Assembly (NCBI GenBank): GCA_020055645.1
Contig: CM034549.1
Span: 19,117,930 to 19,181,929 of the forward strand
Direction: 5' to 3'
DNA length: 64,000 bases
Source of the DNA: Tomocerus qinae
Lineage: Eukaryota > Arthropoda > Collembola > Entomobryomorpha > Tomoceridae
Position numbers and translations under genes: made by a program. The notes under the pieces are model-generated. The model had not been told where the DNA came from, made no database searches, and was given only the letters and a program-made list of their open reading frames with translations. Each line of letters opens with the position of its first letter. The stretch's first letter is position 1. Below are positions 39,501 through 64,000 of this stretch, piece by piece.

Positions 39501-40324
39501 ATGGACAATCCTATTCAAAAAGATGAGCTCCTTATAGAAGGAAGTAAATATGCATAATATTAACTTAACCGTAAGAAATGTCCGTAATTTAGGCGGATTA
39601 ACAAGTTAAACCCTAACTAATAGCCCTTTTGGGTTTTCACATCTCTTCAATCTCTTGGGCAAAAATATCAAAGAATCGTGTATTAAGAAGTTAATGATAA
39701 AAAATATTTGATAACAATAAACTCTTATTATGACTTTACAGATATCAGAGAAATTTATTCATCAATATTTGATCATAAACCGGCTTTAAGAAGAGAAATC
39801 GACTTTTTTGTTAAAGAATTTGAGGTAAGAGGTCAAAAAATCAACTTATCAACATTTTTGTCTTCAATTGGTTAGTATCTTCAATTTGGTTGGGATTTCA
39901 AATGATTGAACTTCTTGTTTCAACACAGGAGAGTAGAAGAGACAGGGAAATAGACAATTTGTTTCGAATTTTGGAGAGAGTCACGGAGCTGAAGGATACC
40001 GAGATTCCTAAAACAACATCTTTAGCCGATATTCATTTACCTAAACTCTCCGCGGAATTGCAAGTTGCTGAATCCATTTCGGACAAACTATTACAGAAAC
40101 GTTCTACATCTGATCAGTTGATTAGTGCTAAATTGGAACAAAAAAGAGGAGAAAGAGCAGCAGAGTGGGATGCTTTTGTTCATGAAATGACAAATAGGTG
40201 CATTCGAATTGACAATACGTACAAAGACAAGGAGGACGAAATTGAGGAACTTTATCGTGTAGCAGAAACGAAACTGCTTCTTAATCAAGCTGCTGCAGCT
40301 GCTCAGCCACAACCATCAAAATAA
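39501..40324 (+). CDS. BLOC-1 complex subunit 5 (muted homologue)
   Basis: Three exons, 39,501-39,543, 39,742-39,824 and 39,929-40,324 (TAA), join in phase into 173 residues; the human protein is slightly longer. The N-terminal part encoded across exons 1-2 reads NIREIYSSIFDHKP and then REIDFFVKEFE, matching human EIHSRLLDHRP and RYFVKEFEEKR. The rest is predicted coiled coil, with ESRRDREIDNLFRILE and EWDAFVHEM matching the conserved family positions, and ends in a short Ala/Gln tail. BLOC-1 is a cytosolic hetero-octamer that sorts cargo from early endosomes to lysosome-related organelles such as pigment granules. The first exon is short and its donor (GTAAAT) is weak, so the exact start is the least sure part. 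The next gene begins 52 bases after the stop. Confidence 0.88.
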
Positions 40325-40376
40325 TTTACTCTATTCCACTTCCTAAAATTCTTCGTGCCTTTAATAGTAATTAACA

Positions 40377-41177
40377 ATGGAAGCCAATAGTTCGTCAAGT
40401 AGTCAACCAGGTTCAGATCGGTCGAATTTGGGAGTAATAATAGATCCCAACATCAAAATTAAATTAGGGAAGCAGTTTAATGCTCAGAGTTCACAACTCT
40501 TTGATAAGGATACTGGGGCATTTTACCAAGAGGATAATAAAATACTCTCCATAGGCGAAGTAAAAGAATTGTGGAAGAAAGTACAAAATACCGAAAATCA
40601 TTCCAATGGAAGAAAAGTGTATCTCCACGAACTTTTATGTGATTCTGAAGTCTTGATACCTGAACTGGAAATCCCCAAGAGAAATCCAGAACTGGAGAAA
40701 AGATTGACTCATCTGAGAAATTTGGTGGCTGAGAAGGAGTATCAACGAATGACTAAAAATGTCAATTGTTCTAGTCACTACAAACCAGAAGATTCTATCG
40801 GGTTTCAATGTGTGTATTTTTTATTATATTATTTCAGATTCTATAAATTATGCATTCTGAAAACACTTTTGTAATGCGACATTAATTATTTTGATTTTTT
40901 AGTGAAACAAATGAACTCAGGACTTATAGGGGTCATCCAGCTTGTGATATCCTTAGCCGCAGCGTTTCTATTTGGTTACATGGGGTTAGAACTTTTTGTG
41001 GGATTTACCTTTGACCTTGCTGTGAAACTTCTTCTTGGTATCATGTGTGCACTTATTGTTGGAGCTGCTGAATTATATTTTCTTGTTATCAACATGGACG
41101 TTGCTGAAAGTACTAGTAATAGTGGCACAGGCACTAATCGAAACAGTATTAGTTACGCTTCGAAGAAAATAAATTAA
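40377..41177 (+). CDS. TMEM199 / Vma12-type V-ATPase assembly factor
   Basis: Two exons, 40,377-40,809 and 40,903-41,177 (TAA), joined across a 93-base intron, give 235 residues. The conserved Vma12 core is clear: VYLHELL at residues 81-87, PKRNPEL at about 100-106, then AEKEYQRMTKNV. Two hydrophobic membrane segments follow at about 152-175 and 183-207, the second ending GAAELYFLVINM as in human TMEM199. The protein is expected in the ER/Golgi membrane, where it chaperones assembly of the V-ATPase membrane sector. The N-terminal 20 residues are Ser-rich and the C-terminal tail is Ser/Asn/Thr-rich. It lies immediately behind BLOC1S5 on the same strand with no AATAAA in the gap. A pyrimidine tract and TTTAATAG just before the ATG could act as a splice acceptor. 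Confidence 0.92.
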
Positions 41178-42456: not shown

Positions 42457-44061
42457 ATGGGCCTAAATAATTGGCTTGTGTGGTATCCCGGCATCTTTGC
42501 TTTCATACTGTTATCTGCAGTGATCGTGGTAATTTTATAACAAATTCTTATTATTAAGGAATTTTAAGAAAATATTTATAAATGCAAATAATTACACAAC
42601 ACAGAAAAGACATAGGACATAGGTTTTGTGGTATACTTTGTGTATAGATAGGTAAACTTTATGTAGTATTTTTTTCCATTTGTCCTACCCTACCTTTCTA
42701 CATTTGTCCATCATATTAGTATGATGATGATACTTAGCTTGACAATTTTAGCTATCCGATATTTAGTCTTTCCCTATAACCTCGATCAGTAATCGATACG
42801 ATTAAAAGAAAAACAAAAGAAATCGTCTCTGTAGGAAAACCAGAAGACAGTCTTTAGTAATTCATAATCCAGAGGAATCCAGTGTACTGCATGGAAACCT
42901 TTTTGGTGCAACATGAGAAGGGAATTAATTATGTATAATTAATTATTATTATGCATCTGCATGGCATGATGCATGATTTAAAAAGTTGATGATTAATCTT
43001 TATTGCAAATTTATTTTATTTTTAGAGCACAAACGGAGGCAACAGCAAAGCAGATCTGGTTGATATCGAAGTGGACAGTCCTGTTAACAGAGTTAATGGT
43101 GTAATCGATGAAGAGGAAGAGTAAGTGGTAAAATAAATGCAATTTAAATGGGTTCCACGATAATGTTCATTTTCAATTGTTGAGGATTTGGTTTACATAT
43201 TATCATAGTATTGTAATACTGGTAAATGTATAGTAAAATGCAATATTGTGTAAGCCCTATATTGTCGATACTCAGGGAAATGGCTTCAAAATGAACGTCA
43301 AATAGTTTTTTTAAAAGGACCTGAAATCTGAAAGGATTGTGGTTATGTCATGAGTCATGACTTAACGTGATCAAGTGTAAGTGTGAATACTGCATTTCTA
43401 AAGCCCACTAAAATGAAGTGGCCCACTAAAGAAGTCGATCTCGAATTTTGGCTGTTAAGGGGTCTGACATTGGCAAAATCTTTTCAGAACTTCCTAGCAC
43501 CACCCACCTGATGGTTTTTATTAGCCTTCATTTTTTGTCGGTTTATGTGGAAATAATCTTACTTTTAATTACACGTTAGTGCAGAAATTGTTTTATAGAC
43601 ATATTTCTTTCTTTGTCCTTCTGTCCAAAGCCTTGGGGCATTTGCAGATGAATGTATGTATAAACTATTGTTTGTAGTTATTGTACTTGGGTATTTTATC
43701 TTTTTCTAGGGACTTCAAGAGAAATACAAGAAACGCACAAGATGTAAGCCATAACCGTAACCCGCATCGGCCTTCTCACAATTTTCCTGAACAAGAAAAT
43801 GTTATTTCAATCTCTATTCCAGCCTGTACAGAGGAAGGAATTTCTTTGGTTCAGGGCAGAAATGAGCACTATTTGAAATGTATCCGTGATGTTAATACAG
43901 GGGGATTTTTTCAAGTTGTTTACATTTGTCAACATGGACCATCAAACAGTTTTGGTGACCCGAATAAGTGCATCCCTCCCATTGATTGTAATGGATGTAG
44001 TCAACATAATAAGCATCCCGGTATGCCTGGAGCTGGAAGGGAGGCAAGCGGGTTCGATTAG
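42457..44061 (+). CDS. short secreted protein with one CBM14-like domain (predicted short isoform)
   Basis: Exons 42,457-42,528, 43,026-43,120 and 43,710-44,061 (TAG) join in phase into 172 residues. Exon 1 encodes a hydrophobic signal segment (residues 1-24, GLNNWLVWYPGIFAFILLSA...). Exon 2 encodes a linker ending in an acidic run (DEEEE). Exon 3 encodes cysteines at 95, 113, 129, 143, 149 and 152 in the order CTEEG, YLKC, YICQHG, NKC, IDC, CNGC. This resembles a peritrophin-A/CBM14 chitin-binding fold with its second cysteine missing. The product is probably extracellular and chitin-associated. An AATAAA follows the stop. Exons 1-2 are also in phase with the giant exon downstream, so this may be the short form of a two-product locus. 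It could instead be a separate gene. Confidence 0.7.
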
Positions 44062-47000
44062 ATTTTCTTAAAATAATAATAAACCATGTACAAATGGGTG
44101 TAAGAAAGTGGTGTGAAATCGCATCGATAAATAAATAAATTGTCCATTACACAACGGTAGCAAAATTCAACCTTATGTAGCGTTATAACATGACACAGTA
44201 TGTGACCTTTCGAACGAACGAAAGTCATGTTACAATACAACACGCCTTTTTGCGAAGAGTCGAACCGAAGTTACATGAATATTTAGTCAGTTTTAGTTTT
44301 TCACCCGCTTCCCCAATGAGGAGGTTACTGAGATTTACTTTTTAATATCCCTAAACCTTTTTGCTGTCAAACGACCTAATACACAACTTTGTAGGATGAA
44401 TCGAAATGAACTTACACCGATTTTCAGTTATTTTTATGTTGTTCATCCACTTCCCCTGTCAAGGGATGACTATAAACATTTAATAGTGTCTATTGACATG
44501 TCAGCTTTCAATCGAGCCATTCACGACTTTGTAGGACGAATAGAACTGAAGTTACATTAATTTTCAGTTATTTTTATGTTTTTCACCACTTCCCCTGTCA
44601 GGGGATGATTATAAACATTTAATAGTGTCTTTTGACATGTCAGCTTTCAATTGAGCCATTCACGACTTTGCACGATGAATATAACCGAAATTACAACGAT
44701 TTTTAGTTATTATTAAATTTCAAACCCCTCCCCTGGACAGGGAGTGTGACCGATTTTGCCCATTTACGAACTTGATGTTACTTTTGTTCTCTAGTTAGCG
44801 TACAAAAAATTTTAACTGATTTTCTCATTCCATTCGAAAGTTATCGTGGTTACATGCAGACAGACGGACAGATAGACAGATAGATTGGGCATTCCTATAA
44901 AGGGGTGTTTCACACAACGTAATGATAATGCACAATATTTCACACTATGTGTAGTGTAGGGTATTACAAATATCTCATGATGACTTCATAGTTGGTTTTA
45001 TTTTTAATATTATATTGTTTTAATCTACAATGGTGGAAGATCGCCTTGACATTGAGTCATTTAACACTTTTCTGATTGAAATATCTTTTAGGGCAGAAAG
45101 AGTACCCAATTCAGAGATGCCTTCGATGAACAATCAAGAAGCCAAAATGCAATTAAGAGAGGACAATAAAATAAAATACCAGGAATTAACAAGCAAACTG
45201 ACATCGGTGATGCAAAGAAATCTGATTTCCCGTGTAGAACAACAAAATCAATCGTTGTCACATACCAACTCTCATCTCGTCAAAACTAAAAATGACAATT
45301 CCCATAATAATCAACTTCAAATGACTTCAATGGCCACTCATCAATCAGCAAGTCAGCAACACTCGGCAAATCAAATAGAAGGCCACCAATCATCAATGGC
45401 CGCAAAACAGATAGCAACTCAACAATTGTCAATGACGGTACAACAAAAAGCAAGTCAACAAAAATCAACGATTTCTCAACAAATGGCAAGTCAACAAGCA
45501 TCGATGAATAACCAGCAAATGGCTAGTCAACAAGCATCGATGAATAACCAGCAAATGGCTAGTCAACAAGCATCGATGAATAACCAGCAAATGGCTAGTC
45601 AACAAGCATCGATGAATAACCAGCAAATGGCTAGTCAACAAGCATCGATGAATAACCAGCAAATGGCTAGTCAACAAGCATCGATGAATAACCAGCAAAT
45701 GGCTGGTCAACAAGCATCGATGAATAACCAGCAAATTGCTAGTCAACAAGCATCGATAAATGCCCAACAAATGGCTAGCCAACAAGCATCGATGAATGCC
45801 CAACAAATGGCTAGCCAACAAGCATCGATGAATGCCCAACAAATGGCTAGCCAACAAGCATCGATGAATGCCCAACAAATGGCTAGCCAACAAGCATCGA
45901 TGAATGCCCAAAAAATGGCTAGTCAACAAGCATCGATGAGTTCACAACAAATGGCAAGTCAACAAGCATCGATGAGTTCACAACAAATGGCTAGTCAACA
46001 AGCATCGATGAGTTCACAACAAATGGCAAGTCAACAAGCATCGATGAGTTCACAACAAATGGCAAGTCAACAAGCATCGATGAATGCCCAACAAACAAAG
46101 GTTCAACAAACATCGCTGAATGCCCAACAAATGGCAAGTCAACAAGCATCGATGAATATCCAACAAATGGCAAATCAGCAAGCAATGTCTGCACAACAAA
46201 TGACTAGACAACAGTCATCAATAGCCGCCAATCTAATGAGAGCTAAACAATCGTCAATGGCCGTCAATGAAATTTCTGGTCAACAATCTGCAATAGCCGC
46301 TCATCAGATTGCTGGTCAAAAATCTTACAAAGTCGATCATCAGATGGTTAGTCAGCAGTTATCGATTGCCGCGCACCAAATGGCTGGTGAGGAAACGTCA
46401 ATGGTCGCTCATCAAATGGCCACTCAAAAATCTTCCGTAGCCGCCCAGCAAATAGCCGGTCATAATATGGCCGGTCAACAATCGTCAATAGCTGCCAATG
46501 AAATGGCTAATCAACAATCTGCAATGGCGGCCTACCAAATATCGGGACAACAATCTGCAAGGTCTGCCCAACAAATCGCGGGTCAACAATCTGCAATGGC
46601 TGCACATCAAATGGCGGGTCAACAATCACTGGCTACCCACCATATGGGAAGACAACTATCAGCAATTGCTACACATCAAGTGGTTAATCAACAAGCTTCA
46701 GTGACTGCACATCAAATGGCGGGTCAACAATCGACAATGGCTACACATCAAATGGTTGGTAAACAATCTGCAATTTCGGCCCATCAAATGGCTGGTCAAC
46801 AATCTGCAAGGTCTGCCCAACAAATCGCGGGTCAACAATCTGCAATGGCTGCACATCAAATGGCGGGTCAACAAACACTGGCTACCCACCATATGGGAAG
46901 ACAACTATCAGCAATTGCTACACATCAAGTGGTTAATCAACAAGCTTCAGTGACTGCACATCAAATGGCGGGTCAACAATCGACAATGGCTACACATCAA

Positions 47001-50000
47001 ATGGTTGGTAAACAATCTGCAATTTCGGCCCATCAAATGGCTGGTCAACAATCTGCAATGTCAGCCCATCAAATGGCTGGTCAACAATCTGCAATGTCTG
47101 CCCATCAAATGGCTGGTCAACAATCTGCAATGTCTGCCCATCAAATAGCTGGTCAACAATCTGCAATGTCTGCCCATCAAATGGTTGCTCAACAATCTGC
47201 AATGTCTGCCCATCAAATGGCTGGTCAACAATCTGCAATGTCTGCCCATCAAATGGTTGGTCAACAATCTGCAATGTCTGCCCATCAAATGGTTGGTCAA
47301 CAATCTGCACTGTCTGCCCATCAAATGGCTGGTCAACAATCTGCAATGTCTGCCCATCAAATGGATAGTCAACAATCTGCAATGTCTGCCCATCAAATAA
47401 CTAGTCAACAATCTGCAATGTCTGCACATCTAATGGCTGGTCAACAATCTGCAATGTCTGCCCATCAAATGGCTGGTCAACAATCTGCAATGGCTGCAAA
47501 TCAAATTGCAGGGGAACAATCTACACTGGCTACCCACCAAATGGGAAGACAACTATCATCAATTGCTGCGCATCAAGTGGTTAATCAACAAGCTTCAGTG
47601 ACTGCACATCAAATGTCGGGTCAACAATCTGCACTGTCTGCCCATCAAATGGCTGGTCAGCAATCTGCACTGTCTGCCCATCAAATGGCTGGTCAACAAT
47701 CTGCAATGTCTGCCCGTCAAATGGTTGGTCAACAATCTGCAATAGCTGCACATCAAATGGCTGGTCAACAATCTGCAATGTCTGCCTATCAAATGGCTGG
47801 TCAACAATCTGCAATGTCAGCCCACCAAATGGCTGGTCAGCAATCTGCAATGTCTGCCCATCAAATGGCTGGAAATCATATTGCAGGGCAACAATCTGCG
47901 ATAGCATCCCATCAAATAACTAGTCAACAATCTGCAATGTCTGCCTATCAAATGGCTGGTCAACAACCTGCAATTACTGCCCATCAAATGGCAGGCCAAC
48001 AATCTGCAATCTCTGCCAATCAAATGGCTGGTCAACAATCTGCAATCTCTGCCAATCAAATGGCTGGTCAACATTCTGCAATGGCTGCAAATCAAATTGC
48101 AGGACAGCAATCTGCAATGTCAGCCCACCAAATGGCTGGTCAGCAATCTGCAATGTCTGCCCATCAAATGGCTGGAAATCATATTGCAGGGCAACAATCT
48201 GCGATAGCATCCCATCAAATAACTAGTCAACAATCTGCAATGTCTGCCTATCAAATGGCTGGTCAACAACCTGCAATGTCTGCCCATCAAATGGCTAGTC
48301 AACAATCTGCAATGTCTGCCCATCAAATGGCTGGTCAACAATCTGGAATGTCTGCCCATCAAATAACTAGTCAACAATCTGCAATGTCTGCACATCAAAT
48401 GGCTGGTCAACAATCTGCAATGGCTGCAAATCAAATTGCAGGGGAACAATCTACACTGGCTACCCACCAAATGGGAAGACAACTATCATCAATTGCTGCG
48501 CATCAAGTGGTTAATCAACAAGCTTCAGTGACTGCACATCAAATGTCGGGTCAACAATCTGCACTGTCTGCCCATCAAATAGCTGGTCAACAATCTGCAC
48601 TGTCTGCCCATCAAATGGCTGGTCAACAATCTGCAATGTCTGCCCGTCAAATGGTTGGTCAACAATCTGCAATAGCTGCACATCAAATGGCTGGTCAACA
48701 ATCTGCAATAGCTGCACATCAAATGGCTGGTCAGCAATCTGCAATGTCTGCCCATCAAATGGCTGGAAATCATATTGCAGGGCAACAATCTGCGATAGCA
48801 TCCCATCAAATAACTAGTCAACAATCTGCAATGTCTGCCTATCAAATGGCTGGTCAACAACCTGCAATGACTGCCCATCAAATGGCAGGCCAACAATCTG
48901 CAATCTCTGCCAATCAAATGGCTGGTCAACATTCTGCAATGGCTGCAAATCAAATTGCAGGACAGCAATCAGCGATGGCTTCCCATCAAATAACTAGTCA
49001 AAAATCTGCAATGTCTGACCATCAAATGGCTGGTCAACAATCTGCAATGGCTGCACATCAAATGGCCGGTAAACAATCTGCAATGTATGCCCATCAAACG
49101 GCTAATCAACAATCTGCAATGTCTGCTAATCAAATGGCTGGTAAACAATCTGCAATGTATGCCCATCAAATGGCTGGTCAACATATTGCAATAGCTGCTA
49201 ATCAAATGGCTGGTCAACAATCTGCAATAGCTGCTAATCAGATGTCGGGTCAACAATCTGCGCTAGCTGGCTATCAAATGGCAAGTCAACAATCTGCAAT
49301 GGCTTCCCATCAAATAGCTGGTAAACAATCTGCAACGGCTACTCATCAAATGGGAAGACAACTATCGTCAATTGCTGCCCATCAAGTGGTTAATCAACAA
49401 TCTGCAATTTCAGCCCATCAAATGGCTGGACAACAATCTGCAATGTCAGCGCTTCAAATGGCTGGACAACAATCTGTAATGTCTGCCCCTCAAATGGCTG
49501 GTCAACAATCTGCAATGGCTGCAAATCAAATTGCAGGGCAACAATCTGCGATGGCTTCCCATCAAATAACTGGTAAGCAATCCACTATGGCTACGCATCA
49601 AATGGCCGGTAAACAATCTGCAATGTATGCCCATCAAACGGCTAATAGACAATCTGCAATTTATGCCCATCAAATGGCTGGTCAACAATCTGCGATAGCT
49701 GCTAATCAAATAGCGGGTCAACAATCTTCCTTAGCTGCGCATCAAATGGCCGGTCAACATATTGCAATAGCTGCTAATCAAATGGCTGGTCAACAATCTG
49801 CAATAGCTGCTAATCAGATAGCGGGTCAACAATCTGCACTAGCTGGATATCAAATGGCGGGTCAACAATCCGCAATGGCTTCACATCAAACTGCGGGTGA
49901 AATATCTGCAATGGCTTCCCATCAAATAGCTGGTCAACAATCTGCAACGGCTACTCATCAAATGGGAAGACAACTATCATCAATTTCTGCCCATCAAGTG

Positions 50001-53000
50001 GTTAATCAACAATCTGCAATGTTAGCCCATCAAATGGCTGGACAACAATCTGCAATGACTGGCCATCAAATGGCTGGTCAGCATTCTGCAATGTCAGCCC
50101 ATCAAATGGCAGGTCAACAATCTGCAATGTCTGCCCATCAAATGGCTGGTCGACAATCTGCAATGTATGCCCATCAAATGGCTGGTAAACAATCTGCAAT
50201 GTCTGCCCATCAAATGGTTGGTCAACAATCTGCAATGTCTGCTCATCAAATGGCTGGTCAACAATCCACAGTGGCTACACATCAAATGGCTGGTCAACAA
50301 TCTGCAATGGCCGCACACCAATTGGCGGGTCAACAATCTGCTTTGGGTTCACACCAATTGGTGGGTCAACAATCTGCTATGGGTGCACATCAAATGGCTG
50401 GTCAACAATCGACAATGGCTACACATCAAATGGCTGGTCAACAATCTGCAATATCTGCCCATCAAATGGCTGGTCAACAATCCACAATGGCTACACATCA
50501 AATGGCTGGACAGCAATCTGCAATGTCTGCCCATCAAATGGCTGGTCAACAATCTGCAATGTCTGCCCATCAAATGGCTGGTCAACAATCTGCAATGTCT
50601 GCCCATCAAATGGCTGGTCAGCAATCTGCAATGTCTGCCCATCAAATGGCTGGTCAACAATTTGCATTGTCTGCCCATCAAATGGCCGGTAAACAATCTG
50701 CAATGTATGCCCATCAAATGGCTGGTAAACAATCTGCAATGTCCGCCTATCAAATGGCCGGTCAACAATCTGCAATGGCTGCAAACCAAATGGGAAGTCA
50801 ACAAGCTTCAATGGCCACCCATCAAATGGCAGGTCAACAAGCTTCAATGGCAACGCATCAAATGGCAGGTCAACAAGCTTCAATTGCAACGCATCAAATG
50901 GCAGGTCAGCAAACTTCAATGGCTGCAAACCAAATGGCAAGTCAACAAGCTTCCATGGCCACCCATCAAATGGCAGGTCAACAAGCTTCAATTGCAACGC
51001 ATCAAATGGCAGGTCAGCAAACTTCAATGGCAACGCATCAAATGGCAGGTCAACAAGCTTCAATTGCAACGCATCAAATGGCCGGTCAACAAGCTTCAAT
51101 TGCAACGCATCAAATGGCAGGTCAACAAGTTTCAATGGCACTATCTGAAATGGCACATCATCAGTCTGATATAGCGTCCACCCAGATGGCTAGTCAACAA
51201 TCTGCTATGGTGTCCTCCCAAATGGCACATCTTCAATCTGCAGCTGTACAATCTCAAATAGTACATCAATCTAAAGCAGCACAATCTCAAATAGAACATC
51301 AACAGTCCAATTCGGCCTCATCCCGGATGGCTGAACATCTATCTACCGCAGCACAATCGCAAATGGCTCAACAGCAATCTCATATGGCTAACCAACAGTC
51401 AGCTATGGCGTCATCCCGCATGGCTACTGCTGTATCCCAAAATCAAATGGCTCAACATCAATCTGCCGCAGCACAAAACATACAGCAACATTCAGCAGTG
51501 GCATCATTTCAAATGGCACAACAACAATTAGCAGGTGCATCATCACAAACGGTAAAACAACAATCAGCAGCTGCATTAACTCAAATGGGACAACAACAAT
51601 CAGCAGCTGCATCAACTCAAATGCGACAACAACAATTAGCAGCTGTATCATCTCAAATGGCACATCAACAATTAGCAGCTGCATCATCACAAATGTCACA
51701 ACAGCATTCAGCGTCAGGACAATCTCAAATAGCGCTCCACCACACAACTTCAGCACAACCACAAATGGCACAACAACACACAGCTTCAGCCCAACTGAAA
51801 ATGGCACAACAATCGGGTTTAGCACAAACACAAATGGTACAGCAATCAGGTTCATCACAATATCAATTAGCACAACAAACAGCTTCAGCACAATCTCAAG
51901 CGGTTCAACAACAGTCTTTAGTAACGCAATCCCAAATGGCCCAACAACAGTCATTATTAACCCAATCCCAAATGGCTAAGCAACAGTCTTCGTTAGCACA
52001 ATCCCAAATGGCTCAACAACAATCTTCATTAGCCCAATCACAAGCGGCTCAACAGCAGTCTTCCATGGCACAATCCCAAATGGCTCAACAGCAGTCTTCT
52101 ATAGCACAATCCCAAATAGCTCAACAACAGTCTTCTATAACTCAATCCCAAATGGCTCAACAACAGTCTTTGTTAGCACAATCCCATATGGCTCAACAAC
52201 AGTCTTCTATAGCTCAATCCCGAATGGCTCAAAAACAGTCTTCTTTAGCACAATCACAAATGGCTCAACAGCGGTCTTCTATAGCTCAATCCCAAGTGGC
52301 TAAACAACAGTCTTCCTTAGGACAATCTCAAATAGCTCAACAACAGTCTTCCTTAGCACAATCCAAAATGGCTCAAAAAAAGTCTTCTATAGCTCAATCC
52401 CAAATGGCTAAACTACAGTCTTCTATAACTCAATCCCAAATGGCTCAACAACAGTCTTCTTTAGCTCAATCCCAAATGGCTCAACAACAGTCTTCTTTAG
52501 CTCAATCCCAAATGGCTAAACAACAGTCTTCTATAGCTCAATCCCAAATGGCTCAACAACAGTCTTCCTTAGCGCAATCTCAAATGCAAAAATCTTCTTT
52601 AGCTCAATCCCAAATGGCTCAACAACAGTCTTCTATAGCTCAATCCCAAATGGCTCAACAACAATCTTCATTAGCCCAATCACAAGCGTCTCAACACCAG
52701 TCTTCTATGGCTCAATCCCGAATGGTTCAACAGCAGTCTTCCATGGCACAATCCCAAATGACCCAACAACAGTCTTCTATAGCACAATCCCAAATGGCTC
52801 AACAACAGTCTTCTTTAGCACAATCACAAATGGCTCAACAACAATCTTCCTTGACGCAATCAAACATGGCTCAACAGCAGTCTTCATTAGCACAATCCCA
52901 AATGGCTCAACAGCAGTCTTCTATAGCACAATCCCAAATGGCTCAACAACAGTCTTCATTAGCACAATCCCAAATGGCTCAACAACAGTCTTTTATAGCA

Positions 53001-56000
53001 CAATCCCAAATGGCTCACCAACAATCTTCATTAGCTCAATCTCAAACGGCTCAAAAGCAGTTATCATTAGCCCAATCTCAAACGGCTCAACAGCAGTCTT
53101 CATTAGCACAATCCCAAATGGCTCAACAGCAGTCTTCATTAGCACAATCCCAAATGGCTCAACAGCAGTCTTCTATAGCACAATCCCAAATGGCTCAACA
53201 ACAGTCTTCATTAGCACAATCCCAAATGGCTCAACAACAGTCTTCTTTGGCACAATCCCAAATGGCTCAACAACAGTCTTCTTTGGCACAATCCCAAATG
53301 GCTCAACAACAGTCTTCTCAATCCCAAATGGCTAAACAACATTCTTCTTTAGCTCAATCCCAAATGGCTAAACAACATTCTTCTTTAGCTCAATCCCAAA
53401 TGGCTCAACAACAGTCTTCTATAGCTCAATCCCAAATGGCTCAACAACAGTCTTCTATAGCACAATCCCAAATGGCTGAACAACAATCTTCATTATCTCA
53501 AACGGCTCAACAGCAGTTATCATTAGCCCAATCTCAAACGGCACAACAGCAGTCTTCCATGGCACAATCCCAAATGGCTCAACAACAATCTTCGTTAGCC
53601 CAATCTCAAACGGCTCAACAGCAGTCTTCATTAACACAATCCCAAATGGCTCAACAGCAGTCTTCCTTATCACAATCCCAAATGGCTCAACAGAAGTCTT
53701 CCTTAGCACAATCCCAAATGACTCAACAACAGTCTTCTTTAGCACAATCCCAAACGGCTCAACAACAGTCTTCTATAGCTCAATCACAAATGTCTCAACA
53801 ACTATCTGCACTGGAGTCTTCTAAATCCCAATCGTCGGCATTAAATTCACAGCAAGCATCTGTAAGTTTATCTTCCAGTTTGTCAACATTATCTGATGTT
53901 AGTCAGTCTGTAATTACGGATGTTAAATCGTCTCAAACTTCCAATTCTCAAAGCCAATCTTCTAGTTCCTCTTCCTACGAATCAATGGAAATAACGTCAT
54001 CATCATTTTTCAGTAGTTTGACTACATATCTTGAAACAATTTCATTCGATATAATTACCACAATCACCACAATAATAGTTGACTTTTCGATGGACACCTT
54101 TTTTGAACAATACCTGCGTTCTGGTAGCGTATCTTTAAGCCAAATATTAATACCAGGATACGTCGTTCCTTCCCTGGATCTGGTACCCAATCCAATGTGT
54201 TCGTTTGTTGGGACTGCTCCTACAGAGGATATCACAATCTATACAGAATGTAATGAAACTAACGGAAAGCTAATTCCAATTGTAAAGAAATGCGATGAAA
54301 ATTACATTTTTAGTGCGTTCATTGGAACATGCATACATGGTTCAGCAGGGGACATTTTGAAAGATGATCTTGGTCTTCACCTTGGCCTTGGACAAAGTGA
54401 TTCACAAATTGCCGTTGGAGAATTGAGTGTACTTGATGTGGGTGAATTCTCTAATGGTGTTCTGACATGTAGTTTCCAGGGATTAACACCATTTGGTAGT
54501 GATGACAGGTTGTATATTTTGTGCTCTTCGTTGAATTCTCAGGGTAAGGTTATTTTCAAAACTTAATAATAATAAATGAAAATAATTAACGTAGCTCTAC
54601 ATTTTGAGTCTATATTTTGCAAATGTTTTCTAATAGAAATACTTTATTAATTATGTCCTGATATTTGCATTTGTGTAAGTGTTTACTCTTTTTCTAGGGG
54701 TGCTGTATTCTTGTCCATATGGATATTATTTCAGCGTGGAAGAACGGAAATGTGTATCTGGGTACTTCATTCAAAAAAGGAAAGACCAATACCCCATCAA
54801 ACCTGTACCTGGAAAACAAATCAGCAGAGCATCTCCAATGTTCATACTTTCTGAGTGTGTTTCTCCAGGTACATTTTCGTACCCAGACTACAGATTTTAT
54901 TTCACTTGTGAAGAACGGCCGGGATCCCCATTGCAATACACTCAGTCTTTGTTCGAATGTCCCGTTGGGTTGTTTTACAACGAAATATATCGTACTTGCA
55001 CTAAAGCATCTGCTTTCTCGGGTCGACAGGTAATTTATAAATCCTCTCCCCTGGGCCACCAACAATAGCATTATAGCAATGCACTGCTAAGAATTTTAAT
55101 TCAAATGTAGTTTAAAGTGCATTAAGTCAAAGAAATACTTTCAAATTCAAAGCGAGAATTCGGAAATATCTTGAGGAGGAACATACCGTTATCTCGATTT
55201 TTGTCTTGATTGTCTGTATATAACCTTTTTACGTGTGTACGTTTTACATTCTTTTTAAGAATATATTGTAGTGTATATAGCATTTGTGATTACTACATTG
55301 TATTATGTGCATTCTCTCGAATCGAATTCCGAGAACAAAGTAGAGATAAACAATGAACATAGTGTTATTGAACCGCGGAATGTGATCTCAACAATTTATA
55401 ATATCTCCGATAGCGCATAGATAAAGTAGAAACTAGACTTGGAAAGTCTAATATAAAAAATAACAACGCTTTGTCCGTATAGATATTATGGTACCAAATG
55501 ATAATGATAATGATAATGATATAATTGTTATGAAATATAGTGATCTTTTGTTGTTCATTACTGTATATAGTACACCTACTCTTGGAATGGAGTGCGTACT
55601 CATTGGACTATTTCAAGAAAAATGGATCTCCGCACGGGTGTTGCCGTTCATGCCAGTTGTGTCCCTCATCAGATAACATCCATTAAGAAAGAAGGAAAAT
55701 ATCCACTAAGGGATATTAGATATTATTACATAATCAGCAGAAAACCAAATGGTATTTTTGGCAGTAAATTGTACATTTGTCACTCCGGGTTCTACTTCAG
55801 CCCTCGCGTGAGTTATTGTGTACCTTCATTTCAACATGAGTACATAATTGCTGGATCAAGCTACAAACTAGGATTCAATTTGGGAAGGGAAGCTAACGTC
55901 AAATTAGCAAGATCAGAGTTGATTACGGGCAGGGGAATTGGGTCTCATGATCATCGATTAAGCAAAATATCTGCAGGAAGTCCGACAGCGCTTACTGAAC

Positions 56001-57133
56001 CGAGATTAGTATTTGGAAATGTTGTGATAACTGATGCAATTGCCTTCGAAATTGCTCCATGTACCCAAGCAGGTTACTACTCCACACCAGATTATAGATT
56101 CTATTTCACGTGTATGTCAAAATCCCCCTTGGGAATAGATCCTGGAGATAATTCCAACGAAAATTCAGTGGAAGACTCTAATAATCCGAATGAAGCTGAT
56201 GATGGCGACGATGAAGAATATATACAGACACTTTTCCAATGCCCAGCTGGACTTTATTTCAGTACCTACTACGGGTTTTGTGTTGCACCTTACCTGCATC
56301 ATTTTGTTGGTTTTGAGAGAAAAGAGAGGTATCTTTGGGGTGGCCATAGCATACGGCTTACATCTCCCATACCTGATATTGGGAAAGTGTGTAGCGAGGA
56401 TTCAATTCCTTGGCAATTGGCTCAATGTCAACAGGATGGTAAATATGGACTTAGAGACCCCCGATATTACAGTTTGTGTAGTGGTGGCTCTAGAAGTTTG
56501 TATGTTTGTCCAACAAATATGTACTTCAATGAGCAGACTGGTGTTTGTTCACCGATATATACATGCAATTGTTGGCACCAAGTGGGATACATTTACGAAC
56601 CAACCGCTAGTACAGGTGTTTCGGGAGGCTTTGATATACAAATTATATTGGATCGTACATACCTACAGTTACTTCGGAAAGTTGTCGGTATTATAGCAAG
56701 AAGGAGCAGCATAGCTATTCGTGGATCTCTAGGTACTGCTAAAGATGCTACTTTGATCACACGCATTATTTGCTTTTGGCGAGAAATGGAGAAACAAAGA
56801 ACATTAGAGTATCCTAGAACCCAACCCCAATCGGGAACATCTCTCCTTCCCCCACAAAATAATTTACCCAGCGGTAAATCATATAACGGACCTAATTTGC
56901 CGGTCCCATATACTCATTCCTCGGGTGGTGGTGGCAATGGCCGATTTCTAAACGGTGGGTCAAGAGATCATCCCCAGCAAAATCCTTCCTCACAAAATCA
57001 CCCACAACAAAATCATCCTTCTGTACAAAATCACCCGCAACAAGTTCCTACTCATCAATATAATAATCCCCTTCATAATAATAATGGTGGATACCACCAA
57101 CCAATGAAAAGCATCCAAAATCAACACGGATAA
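42457..57133 (+). CDS. giant Gln/Ser/Ala/Met-repeat secreted protein with CBM14-like chitin-binding modules
   Basis: Predicted exons 42,457-42,528, 43,026-43,120, 45,092-54,543, 54,698-55,029 and 55,571-57,133 (TAA) join in phase into about 3,837 residues. Residues 1-24 form a signal segment, followed by an acidic linker. One 9.45-kb exon, open throughout, encodes about 230 copies of a 12-residue repeat in three dialects, then a Ser-rich stretch. CBM14-like modules follow at about 3092-3136, 3182-3226, 3260-3307, 3347-3400, 3481-3560 and 3603-3645. They carry the pattern C..G....DYRFYFTC....CP.GLYF.....C. The tail is rich in Gly, Pro, Gln, Asn and His. The repeats have almost no charged or aromatic residues and no Cys. 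The protein is probably an extracellular chitin-anchored structural or mucin-like component of cuticle, gut lining or a secretion; I do not recognise it as a named protein. An in-frame ATG at 45,030 would give a start without signal peptide, so the upstream splice is preferred. The segment after the last module (about 3,646-3,725) has no clear fold. Confidence 0.78.
44078..44083 (+). terminator. poly(A) signal of the short isoform
   Basis: AATAAA lies 17 bases after the stop of the short CBM14-like protein, with further AATAAA-like copies near 44,129-44,140. This marks 43,710-44,061 as a terminal exon. Confidence 0.5.
44247..44920. repeat. tandem repeat, about 140-bp unit, with GACA/GATA tail
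   Basis: At least three units, with matching points at 44,391, 44,531 and 44,670, carry the landmarks GTAGGAYGAA, GATTTTCAGTTATTTT, CACTTCCCCTGTCA and GACATGTCAGC. A more diverged unit precedes them from about 44,247. The block ends in a degenerate CAGACAGACGGACAGATAGA run at about 44,856-44,886. Such unit-plus-tail structure is common in mobile-element-derived repeats, but I cannot assign a family. It lies in the intron between the short terminal exon and the giant exon. Confidence 0.65.
45484..46194 (+). repeat. coding tandem repeat zone 1, unit MASQQASMNNQQ
   Basis: About 20 copies of a 36-bp unit encode MASQQASMNNQQ, then variants with NAQQ and SSQQ endings. The first six copies are almost identical at DNA level (core ATGGCTAGTCAACAAGC), which points to recent amplification or gene conversion. 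The zone contains no histidine. Confidence 0.95.
46198..51144 (+). repeat. coding tandem repeat zone 2, unit MAGQQSAMSAHQ
   Basis: About 137 units of 36 bp encode MAGQQSAMSAHQ and variants (MVGQQ, ITSQQ, AAHQ, ANQ, SYQ). A His at position 11 is followed by Gln and the Met of the next unit, giving a recurrent H-Q-M motif. Truncated units such as MAGNH insert phase slips. Larger duplicated blocks are superimposed: 249 bp at 46,561/46,810, and 930 bp at 47,511/48,441. Confidence 0.95.
51145..53812 (+). repeat. coding tandem repeat zone 3, unit MAQQQSSLAQSQ
   Basis: About 74 units of 36 bp encode MAQQQSSLAQSQ or MAQQQSSIAQSQ. The first 800 bases are more irregular (for example AAASSQMAHQQ types) and the later part is nearly uniform. 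Occasional Lys replaces Gln (MAKQQ). Truncated units occur (for example near 52,585 and 53,320). Histidine is rare, in contrast to zone 2. Confidence 0.95.
54571..54576 (+). terminator. intronic AATAAA just after the giant exon
   Basis: If the donor at 54,544 is not used, translation stops at 54,564-54,566 after a few extra residues and this AATAAA follows directly. It could support an intronically polyadenylated form lacking most chitin-binding modules, or it could be a chance A/T match. Confidence 0.3.
55493..55522. repeat. microsatellite, AATGAT units
   Basis: A short run of AATGAT-type repeats in the last intron of the giant chitin-binding gene. It is in the intron by the splice model, with the acceptor TATATAG at 55,570. 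Confidence 0.6.
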
Positions 57134-57185: not shown

Positions 57186-57191
57186 AATAAA
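57186..57191 (+). terminator. poly(A) signal AATAAA
   Basis: Canonical signal 53 bases after the stop of the giant chitin-binding protein. Confidence 0.5.
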
Positions 57192-60139: not shown

Positions 60140-63100
60140 ATGTCTTCACGAGACAAACTGGCGTCCAACATTTCATCTGAAGATGACAGTGAAGTTATAA
60201 ATCGTACTGGCACCGGAGTTCTTTTGCGGATATTTCAAGAACCACAGGCTTTATCTTCCAAAAAAGTAAGGTTATTAGTCATTAGTTATTAGCCGATTAA
60301 AACAGTAACTGTCAATTGTTTTACCCATTTTCCAAATTCGCTCAAACCTCATTTCATTCTTTATAATTTTGGAATATGTGCTCAGGACCGAGAGGCAAAA
60401 AATGCAAGGTATGTGCCACCAGCTCCTCGTCCTCACCATCTTCGCTCTGCGCCTTCACAAACACGTCTGATACACTCAAGATCCAACGATTCACATGATT
60501 TAGATAGTTCCTTTAATATGCTTATTCAAAGCACGGGTCAGGGATCTTCAAAAACTTTTTTTAGACAGTTTTTTGAAATTCAAGAACGACTTGGCTTTGG
60601 TTCTTTTGGCGATGTATTTCGCGTTAAAAGCCATCAAGACGGTAAGGAATATGCTGTAAAGAAATCTCGTAACACCTTTTCTGGAGAAGGAGACAGGTAA
60701 AAAATAATTTTAATGTTTTTTGGATGTTTAAATGTCAATGTCTCTGGATCATGTAATGTACTAGTTATATTCAACAGAAATGTAACAGTGCCAGTGCAAT
60801 AATGCACATGCATGAATTTACACTTTCCAACCTGACGGCATAATTTAGTTCCAAGTTCAACAATAATAATTATTGCCGTTTGTTATAATATTATTGTTTT
60901 GTAAATAGATCGCGTCAACTTAAAGAAGTTCAAAGAGTGGTAAACATCCCCTCTCATTGTCATCTTGTATCTCTTGAGCAGGCTTGGGAAGAGGAGGGTC
61001 ATCTCTATCTTCAAATGGAGCTTTGCTCAAAATCCTTAAATCAATTGATTGAAGAAGGTGATGGTCTGGATGAACATCAGGTGCGTGTGTCAACGACGTT
61101 GATCCAACGTCATGGCTATTTATTGATTTTATGACACATAATATAATATAATGTAAAATTGAAGATGGAATATGGCCTAGTCACTATAAATAGAGTTAGT
61201 TAGCTTGCACAAATCGTAGACGTTTGTTACGTATTTAATACGCATGAGGTTGATTTGAACGCATCGTCTAATTTGCATATTACAAAAATAGAAATTCACC
61301 TTGCTGTCTGTTCTGGGTTAACATTACAATATTTTGAAATAATCGGAGTTGCTGGGGGCCTAGTCATGTAAATATTTTTAGGAAAACGATTTCAGAAATT
61401 TTCGATTTAGCTATATTGAATTATAATTAAATGAACGTTATATCAGACCAAAATTGGTGTCCCGTATACGGTTTTTATGAATGTCAACGCAGCAATATTA
61501 GATAAAATTTAATTGTTGAATTTAATTTAATGATAATTATTTTGGCTGTTAATTTATAATTATTTGTTTACCTATAATCTCAGCTACATATCCTTAAAAG
61601 TCTCTATACTTACGATTGAGGTGCAGAGTGTCAAAAATATCTTTGCATTTGATTTCAGTCTTGGGGAGTTCTTATCGACATGCTGTTCGCTTTGCAGCAT
61701 CTACATAAATATCATCTAGTCCACATGGATGTCAAGCCTGATAATATATTTCTCAGTTTGAATAGTCCAACCATATATAAACTCGGAGATTTCGGAATTG
61801 TTGTCAGTCTGGAGGAAACAGTAATATTATTTTCTTTAAAAATACTGAAATACCTGTGTACTACATTATATTCATTTATTTATTTCATATACCTTATTTT
61901 ATGTTATCATTAGAAAGTTATCTTTATAATCAGATTGAAGATCAGTATTTTATGTTATTATTATTTAGAGAGACATCACGGAGTATACCGATGGAGATTC
62001 TAGATATTTGGCTCCCGAACTAATGCAAGGAAATGTTACTACAAAAGCCGATGTCTTTAGTCTTGGACTTACTATATTGGAAATTTCATGCCATGTAGAT
62101 TTGCCTAAAGGAGGAGATTTGTGGCACTCATTGAGGTCGGGGGACGAATTTCCTCCTCCGTGTGATAAACGTAAGTACATTATATCAAGTTCAATTTTTG
62201 ATTTTTAAAGTCAGATACAATGTGTGGACAAGTGTTAGTGACAATTAGATAAGCGATAGAGATTATATTAGTTCTATGTGTTAAAAGTTAATCTACATTA
62301 CGCAACGTATATTTCATGGAGAAATAATATATTTGATTTAAAATCATCAACAAATGACATATTATTATAAATACAGTGAAAACTTATAATAGAGCAGTAA
62401 CTTATTTAGAATCTATTTTTATTTTTTAAGTGACAATTAAAATATACTAAATTACTAACTATAATTTGGTAAAATTTAGTTATTCCAAATTCGCTGAGGG
62501 ATATATTACGGTTAATGCTGACTCCTGATGTATCAAAGCGACCGGAAATTGAAGATTTACTGAAACACCGGGACGTTAAAGCTCAAATTCAAAGCCGATA
62601 TTGGTCATTGACGAGAGCTAATATAAGAAGACGAATGGGAGTGCTAACGGGCTTTCTTCAAAATTTGATAAGCTTCTTTGCTTCTTTAAATATCTTTTTC
62701 GGCTACAGACACCAAGATCTGCCCATTGACCAAGCGAGAAGTACTCCTGAGCCATGTCCTCCCGAAGTGCCAAATATTTTGTTAAATGATGTATCTTTCT
62801 CTGATGGTAATAATATAATTATATAATATAATATGTATCATTGTAGCCAATTGTTGTTAATTTATAATAATTGAACCTATCGGTAGAATTTCGTTTTATA
62901 GATGATTTAAATCAGCATTTGATTTCATTGAATCTAAGGTCAAAAGATATAATAATATAATGTAATATAGTAGGTCAGTGGCAATAAAGGTCTGTATAAT
63001 ATATATAATTAGTATTTAGTGTTGATTTTACTTTGTTCTTTAATTACAGACGATAACGATGTTCATCACAAGCGGGCTGAGACACCTGTTTATGCTTCGA

Positions 63101-63366
63101 CCCCAATATCTCATTCGAAGGGAAAATCTTCCGCGTGAGTCTTCGGCTTTATATAATATTATATAATAGATAAATAGATATTAACTTCATGTGTATTTCA
63201 AGTCAAAGTATTGTTTCTATCAACAATTTCCTTAAATAATGTCAATTTATTTTCTAGTCGTTTACGTAGTGGACGTTTTGCGCGTGGTGCCAATGGTGAA
63301 AATAAGTTAATGGGAAGTCCCACATCCAGGAATTTGCTCAAAGAGTTCGAGGCTGTTTCTGACTGA
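60140..63366 (+). CDS. Myt1 membrane-associated inhibitory CDK1 kinase, complete
   Basis: Eight coding exons (60,140-60,265; 60,386-60,696; 60,909-61,080; 61,659-61,820; 61,969-62,170; 62,480-62,806; 63,050-63,134; 63,258-63,366) join in phase into 497 residues; human PKMYT1 is about 499. The glycine loop [10 protein letters not shown] spans 111-120, with ATP-binding Lys134 in AVKK. The catalytic loop HMDVKPDN (225-232) has the Wee1/Myt1-type Asp-Val in place of Arg-Asp-Leu. DFG is at 247-249, and SRYLAPE and [12 protein letters not shown] follow. Unlike Wee1, a hydrophobic segment at about 378-399 ([19 protein letters not shown]) follows the kinase domain and should anchor it in ER/Golgi membranes. 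The C-terminus ends with SRNLLKEFE, like human RNLLSMFED, the cyclin-B docking region. The enzyme phosphorylates CDK1 on Thr14/Tyr15 to hold cells in G2. An acceptor at 60,131-60,132 just before the ATG implies a non-coding first exon upstream. Confidence 0.95.
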
Positions 63367-64000
63367 AGCATTATTCCATCTACATTCTGTCCATTGTTGG
63401 TTAAAACTATTTTCTTACAAGTATCGCGTGACTGTACTGGCTTGTTTGTTGTTTGACATATTCTTATAATTTAATGTAAAGAAAAAATGACATGAGTTTA
63501 TACTTAACTCTTTTAAGGTTACAATTGATTTAGCCTACAGTTTTTTTTAAAAATTAGGACTACATGACGTTATTATCGTGACCATTGTCAGCGTATTTCA
63601 GAAGTGTATATTCACGATAATCACAACAAGCTGTAGTAGGTAATCATTCGTGACTTGTTTTTTATTTTTGTTTGTTTTTGAAAGTTATAAAGTTAACTAA
63701 TTGTACTTTTGTTTGTACAACTATTGAAGGAATACTTCACTGCCCTTATCAATGCGCTTATACCGTTTGTACAGGTACCTACTAATGTATTATATTATTA
63801 TATTAGCAATGATAATGCAAATATTGCTCAATAATTGCAAATGTGCAAGTACAATAATAGATGAAAGTCAGTTCACCGCCTCAAGAACATTTCTAATTAT
63901 ATATCAATTGACTACTTAACAATCAAACGAGGTGAAAATAGACAGAATTGAAGTCAGTGCGTAAACGAGTGAAAATATCATCTGAATGTATATGTAACGG
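63367..64000. other. Myt1 3' UTR and downstream sequence
   Basis: AT-rich sequence with no reading frame or repeat that I can support. No canonical AATAAA was identified close to the Myt1 stop. Confidence 0.4.

Follow-up and report, generated by a model that had tools for sequence, protein, structure and literature searches.

A stretch of 64,000 nucleotides from the collembolan Tomocerus qinae (contig CM034549.1, positions 19,117,930 to 19,181,929; hereafter the window, whose own coordinates are used throughout) contains on its forward strand what appears to be a genuine and maintained gene. It falls within a conserved family that bears CBM14, and one of its exons encodes an unusual domain of twelve-residue repeats. 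We believe that its product is probably a secreted matrix protein that is anchored to chitin and in which the repeat serves as a long cohesive spacer.

The open frame that defines the repeat exon runs from 45024 to 54566 (3,180 codons). Within the exon itself (45097–54543) the coding frame has no stop codon, as against 153, 104, 103, 165 and 358 stops in the five other frames. A preliminary description of the locus had placed this single open exon at 45092–54543 and had read 3,150 codons of it as repeat. The open exon stands with a corrected start, since an acceptor at 45092 requires a phase-2 donor and none was found on inspection by eye. The splice phase sets the start at 45097, which is preceded by CAG and is joined in phase by the phase-1 donor at 44021 (gtatgc). 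A GC donor at 44044 paired with the acceptor at 45092 was rejected on mismatched phases. The claimed length of the repeat did not hold, as the regular array (45471–53819; 8,349 bp) takes up only 2,783 codons, and the exon further contains a lead-in outside the repeat and, behind the array, about 240 codons that include the first CBM14-like module.

The complete model (42457–57133, plus strand) has six exons, GT-AG at every border, and a predicted product of 3,939 residues with no internal stop. Exon 1 (42457–42528) supplies the ATG and a hydrophobic leader, judged by eye, that is a putative signal peptide. Exon 2 (43026–43120, bounded by ttttag/AGCACA and GGAAGA/gtaagt) follows in phase, and exon 3 (43710–44020) encodes six cysteines and is not recognised as CBM14; the N-terminal 234 residues gave no Pfam match to CBM14 at E values up to 1. 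The signal peptide described upstream of the repeat is thus retained as an in-phase but putative leader, from which the repeat is separated by two intervening exons. Behind the array, exon 4 continues with a post-repeat segment (53889–54194) whose later part aligns with a relative (P0006, see below), and then with the first four-Cys CBM14-like module and the first half of the second (54195–54543, placed by Cys positions and alignment). Exon 5 (54698–55029) holds the remainder of module 2 and the whole of module 3. Exon 6 (55571–57133) encodes modules 4–6, a conserved C-terminal motif, a variable tail and the stop codon TAA, an assignment drawn from 11 relatives, alignment A2 and fold matches; a possible polyadenylation signal (AATAAA) lies at 57186–57191. 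The intron before the repeat exon contains a 139-bp tandem repeat in 2.4 copies (44382–44715).

The array amounts to 231.9 unit lengths, or to 237 units with 18 register breaks when an alignment is fitted to the consensus, and both figures agree with the roughly 230 units first reported. The unit follows the pattern Q-[MI]-A-x-Q-Q-S-[AS]-[MIL]-[AS]-x-[HSQN], with the consensus Q-M-A-G/Q/S-Q-Q-S-A/S-M/I/L-A/S-A/Q-H/S. In a fit that is biased towards these very residues, Q1 is occupied in 213 of 237 units, M2 in 175 of 235, Q5 in 201 of 231 and Q6 in 204 of 229. The period is also seen by autocorrelation, which is independent of the consensus fit: identity reaches 0.654 at lag 12 as compared with 0.061–0.233 at lags 1–11. 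Three types of block succeed one another on the plus strand. Block A (45471–46187) comprises about 20 units of the QQASMNNQQMAS type and includes Asn (9.6%). Block B (46188–51116) is of the HQMAGQQSAMSA type, with Gly and His and with segmental duplications. It passes through an irregular transition (51117–51863) into the Gln-rich block C (51864–53819), of the SQMAQQQSSLAQ type.

Residues 232–3090 consist of 27.2% Q, 20.1% A, 17.1% S, 9.9% M, 4.7% H, 4.5% G, 3.1% T and 0.2% P. The earlier figure of one third Gln fits block A (33%) and is too high for block B (23%) and for the whole, and too low for block C (38%). The reported near absence of charge, aromatic residues, Cys and Pro was borne out: the 2,787 array residues include 70 K, R, D and E together, 19 Tyr and Phe, 5 Pro and no Cys (the 131 His were excluded from the charged count). 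The repeat was also said to be unrecognised, and this too was upheld. The exon-4 frame gave no Pfam match at E values up to 10 apart from a single sub-threshold hit (E 2.4), and block C matched nothing among PDB sequences at E values up to 1. A search of the genome (334 Mb, 115 contigs; 150 of 210 candidates scored) with a 240-residue piece of block C gave 35 matches, 20 of them in its own frame; identity does not exceed 33% in the 15 that lie elsewhere, of which 12 contain stops. Literature searches among open-licence papers named no protein of such a kind.

Selection on the encoded protein, as proposed from the open frame, and in-frame evolution of the array are supported by three lines of evidence. 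Neighbouring 36-mers were compared where they share 24 or more of their 36 bases (190 of 230 pairs); they show 374 differences at first, 183 at second and 478 at third codon positions (P 7.6e-18 against one third, in copies that are related). Among 202 unit pairs selected at an amino-acid identity of at least 5/12, the proportions of synonymous (pS) and non-synonymous (pN) differences are 0.286 and 0.140, and the ratio of non-synonymous to synonymous divergence (dN/dS) is 0.43, ranging from 0.33 to 0.51 across rough thirds of the array. Values of 0.08 and 0.14 were set aside, as their units had been selected by amino-acid pattern and were biased by that choice. Finally, of the exact internal repeats listed, the 25 longest have only offsets that are multiples of 3 (12 of these offsets are not multiples of 36), as would fit growth of the array by unequal exchange filtered for frame.

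A somewhat unlikely alternative is that the linker of a conserved CBM14 protein simply grew by unequal exchange, with the frame kept only for the sake of the downstream C-terminus and with length and order irrelevant. Such tolerated growth is favored by segmental copies that are nearly identical (99.6% and 99.2% across 240 bp, with offsets of 249 and 930), by the three block types and by a search for long relatives that found none. Keeping the frame does not by itself account for the scarcity of second-position differences (183 of 1,035) or for fixed positions such as Q1 and Q5, two arguments that are weakened by consensus fitting and recent copying.

The CBM14-like modules said to lie downstream of the repeat were found. 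Pfam CBM_14 (PF01607) matches the C-terminal 829 residues with E 1.2e-13 and 51.3 bits (cut-off 22.1), and four stretches are found there at E values up to 1; by our reading of the Cys spacing there are six modules. Four modules have the spacing C-x16/17-C-x9..16-C-x12-C, and the middle gap of module 5 is 42. The canonical CBM14 has six Cys, a pattern that most modules here do not show by Cys positions and alignment A2: modules 1, 2, 3 and 5 have four Cys each, module 4 keeps two conserved Cys, and module 6 has four together with adjoining extra Cys. AlphaFold2 modeled exon 6 poorly as a whole and well only locally (mean predicted local distance difference test, pLDDT, 53; predicted template modelling score, pTM, 0.40). 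In Foldseek this model gave two matches at E values of 0.001 or below, namely 8in3 and 8in6 (E 1e-5 and 3e-5, root mean square deviation 16–18), both of them Aplysia EHEP, which we take to be peritrophin-type. The next nine matches (E 0.04–0.75, probability 0.72–1.00) are Blo t 12, CHIT1 and its CBM14, Der p 23, tachycitin and fungal Avr4. By sequence the best PDB match of exon 6 had an E value of only 0.16, and a profile search reached only 0.27, its hits including unrelated proteins. CBM14 is the family under which the gene is to be filed, on the strength of Pfam score and fold. It resembles CBM14/peritrophin-A proteins in a C-terminal part that exceeds the Pfam cut-off and has a predicted fold matching chitin-binding structures, and it differs from them in having four Cys in four of its six modules, and in the attached giant repeat and C-terminal motif, the latter with no significant Pfam match. 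Genome-wide, at least 150 places exceed the CBM_14 cut-off. Further long open frames rich in CBM14 lie at C4:4937581-4940436, C5:4754317-4756746 and C1:123558825-123562964 (987, 1,298 and 1,714 residues); in the first of these several modules have identical scores and are perhaps recent tandem copies.

Insect CPAP and peritrophic-matrix proteins likewise bear CBM14 and belong to chitin layers. CPAP1 and CPAP3 proteins have one or three CBM14 modules, and membership among them was rejected on module number. Several CBM14 modules beside a low-complexity region form a familiar layout of gut proteins, so that the product could belong to the peritrophic matrix of the gut and have its repeat where a mucin domain would otherwise stand. 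We consider this unlikely as the Pro/Thr mucin linker of insect peritrophic-matrix proteins has no counterpart here: with 0.2% Pro, 3.1% Thr and 17.1% Ser the repeat is not rich in Pro and Thr, and classification as a Pro/Thr/Ser-rich mucin was rejected on the same composition.

The alignments place the downstream part of the gene in a conserved family, of which this genome has a single member. Exon 6 matches 11 database proteins at 39–53% identity, and in a search of the genome it matched only itself. Behind the last module, exon 6 and these 11 relatives have in common the motif LDR.YL..LLR ... CFWR[ED]MEK.RTL (alignment A2), for which Pfam gave no significant match in the protein itself or in three scanned relatives. 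The same three relatives score 50.9 (P0006), 30.7 (P0002) and 27.4 bits (P0012) for CBM_14. The alignment with P0006, a 750-residue frame, has 308 identities in 735 aligned columns, crosses the exon 4/5 junction and the exon 5/6 junction without a gap and extends into the segment behind the repeat. This supports both the downstream gene model and the linkage of repeat and modules, and it is silent on a repeat in the gene of P0006, since the listed frame starts behind the repeat. A search from the upstream half of P0006 returned only P0006 itself, and collections of viral contigs and genome contigs gave pattern matches and no relative.

With respect to the structure of the repeat, the preliminary description had suggested an amyloid-like or a helical protein. 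An AlphaFold2 model of a 240-residue block, built with nine further pieces from the array as its alignment, shows two long helices at a confidence too low for reliance (pLDDT 61.6, pTM 0.24) and gave no Foldseek match, so that the helical suggestion is weakly supported. Mean Chou-Fasman propensities in three blocks are higher for helix (1.09–1.11) than for strand (0.96–0.99), and beta structure is less likely. The hydrophobic moment over 36 residues is 0.171 at 100 degrees compared with 0.397 in shuffles, indicating no lasting helical stripe and speaking against a coiled coil, which we do not favor on this measure (no coiled-coil predictor was used). The moment exceeds that of shuffles at 120 degrees (0.441 against 0.381) and at 150 degrees (0.533 against 0.371), both of which are harmonics of the 12-residue period. 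Hydrophobic residues are spaced mainly 5 (190 cases) and 7 (160 cases) apart; if the repeat is helical, a pair seven apart would share one side and the next pair would lie 120 degrees round.

The amyloid suggestion was not supported. A functional amyloid or prion-like matrix would suit the Gln and Asn content (about 29% together in residues 232–3090) and the excess moment at 150 degrees, itself a harmonic of the unit. We hold it to be very improbable in view of the higher helix propensity, of a moment below that of shuffles at 160–180 degrees, and of the helical, low-confidence model. A more specific form of our preferred reading, which we regard as tentative and rather unlikely, is that the gene represents an undescribed conserved family of arthropod proteins that are anchored to chitin and have a C-terminal domain outside Pfam, and that in this lineage it carries a fibre of new architecture, a helical rod of few charges. 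Each unit would then make 3 1/3 turns, and its Met/Leu pair seven apart would turn by 120 degrees per unit and leave three sides able to associate.

The composition of the repeat invites comparison with two structural proteins. In one report, the N-linker of Araneus ventricosus pyriform spidroin PySp1 has 12-residue Gln/Ala/Ser repeats (QQQYEXSQASIA, with the longer QQQYXXSQQQASIX; Gln 41.2%, Ala 16.7%, Ser 15.8%), the gene contains a single very large exon, and the authors suggest that the Gln-rich regions aid self-assembly (PMC6627382); a second paper gives a related motif (PMC8546084). By analogy the collembolan protein could be a silk-like or adhesive cement, which we consider improbable. 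When the three unit types were compared with the first PySp1 motif, 4,770, 14,669 and 12,240 of 20,000 shuffles reached the observed identity; kinship with pyriform silk was rejected because the order of residues is no closer than composition gives. Pfam scans of the two ends (E up to 1) and of the exon-4 frame (E up to 10) found no spidroin domain here, terminal domains included.

The products of Drosophila dec-1 also contain Gln/Met-rich tandem repeats, and the collembolan protein might accordingly be an eggshell matrix component in which a Gln/Met repeat forms a cohesive layer as dec-1 products do. A review lists chitin-binding proteins among the proteins of a chorion and dec-1 as a structural component (PMC13409908). 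DEC-1 differs from the present protein, which has CBM14 and gave no DEC-1 match in the same Pfam scans of ends and exon-4 frame, where the composition correction of HMMER could mask a match of the repeat, and we think an eggshell role quite unlikely.

Several points weigh against the chitin-anchored, maintained protein that we prefer. The binomial P overstates the evidence and the tests overstate independence, because the copies are related, and dN is biased low because unit pairs were selected by amino-acid identity. Four of the six modules have four Cys instead of six, and their affinity for chitin may differ accordingly. When long relatives were sought with the end of P0001, none of 1,627 candidates reached an E value of 0.001 or below, and the repeat could be confined to this lineage. 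It is modeled as a low-confidence helix, yet its moment is in excess at 120 and 150 degrees. Transcription of the gene is presumed from its sequence.

Neighboring genes in the window (39824–41177 and about 60150–63370) comprise a Muted-like (BLOC-1) frame (E 2e-20) and a Vma12-like frame (E 3e-7); a neighboring kinase-like exon falls below the Pfam cut-off (E 1.4e-4), and further kinase exons were read by eye. Elsewhere in the assembly, contig C105:1-8000 starts with a long TTAGG-type telomere-like array, with shorter TTAGG runs scattered inside large contigs, and in contig C100:1-8000 (L048) a frame stays open for 2,144 codons within 8 kb. Five contigs are longer than 20 Mb, and the TTAGG array together with the many CBM_14 places suggests an arthropod genome. 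Mitochondrial oxidase motifs, sought in the first 8 kb of 20 contigs, did not turn up.

Taken as a chitin-anchored matrix protein, the product of about 3,940 residues would be secreted into the extracellular matrix, where the C-terminal CBM14-like modules and the conserved motif (predicted at low confidence as two helices) would attach it to chitin. The repeat with its few charges would act as a long spacer whose Met/Leu/Ile and Gln side chains pack it against neighboring copies, and the packed repeats would give the chitin layer a cohesive protein phase. A very large and evidently maintained protein would thereby join the chitin-associated matrix proteins, and its Met-bearing, Pro-poor repeat might be of use as a material. 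The C-terminal motif points to a protein family, so far uncharacterised, whose members could be traced and, in laboratory insects, knocked down. Should the repeat prove to be conserved in relatives, it would become possible to test how repeats that are neither mucin nor silk cohere with chitin.

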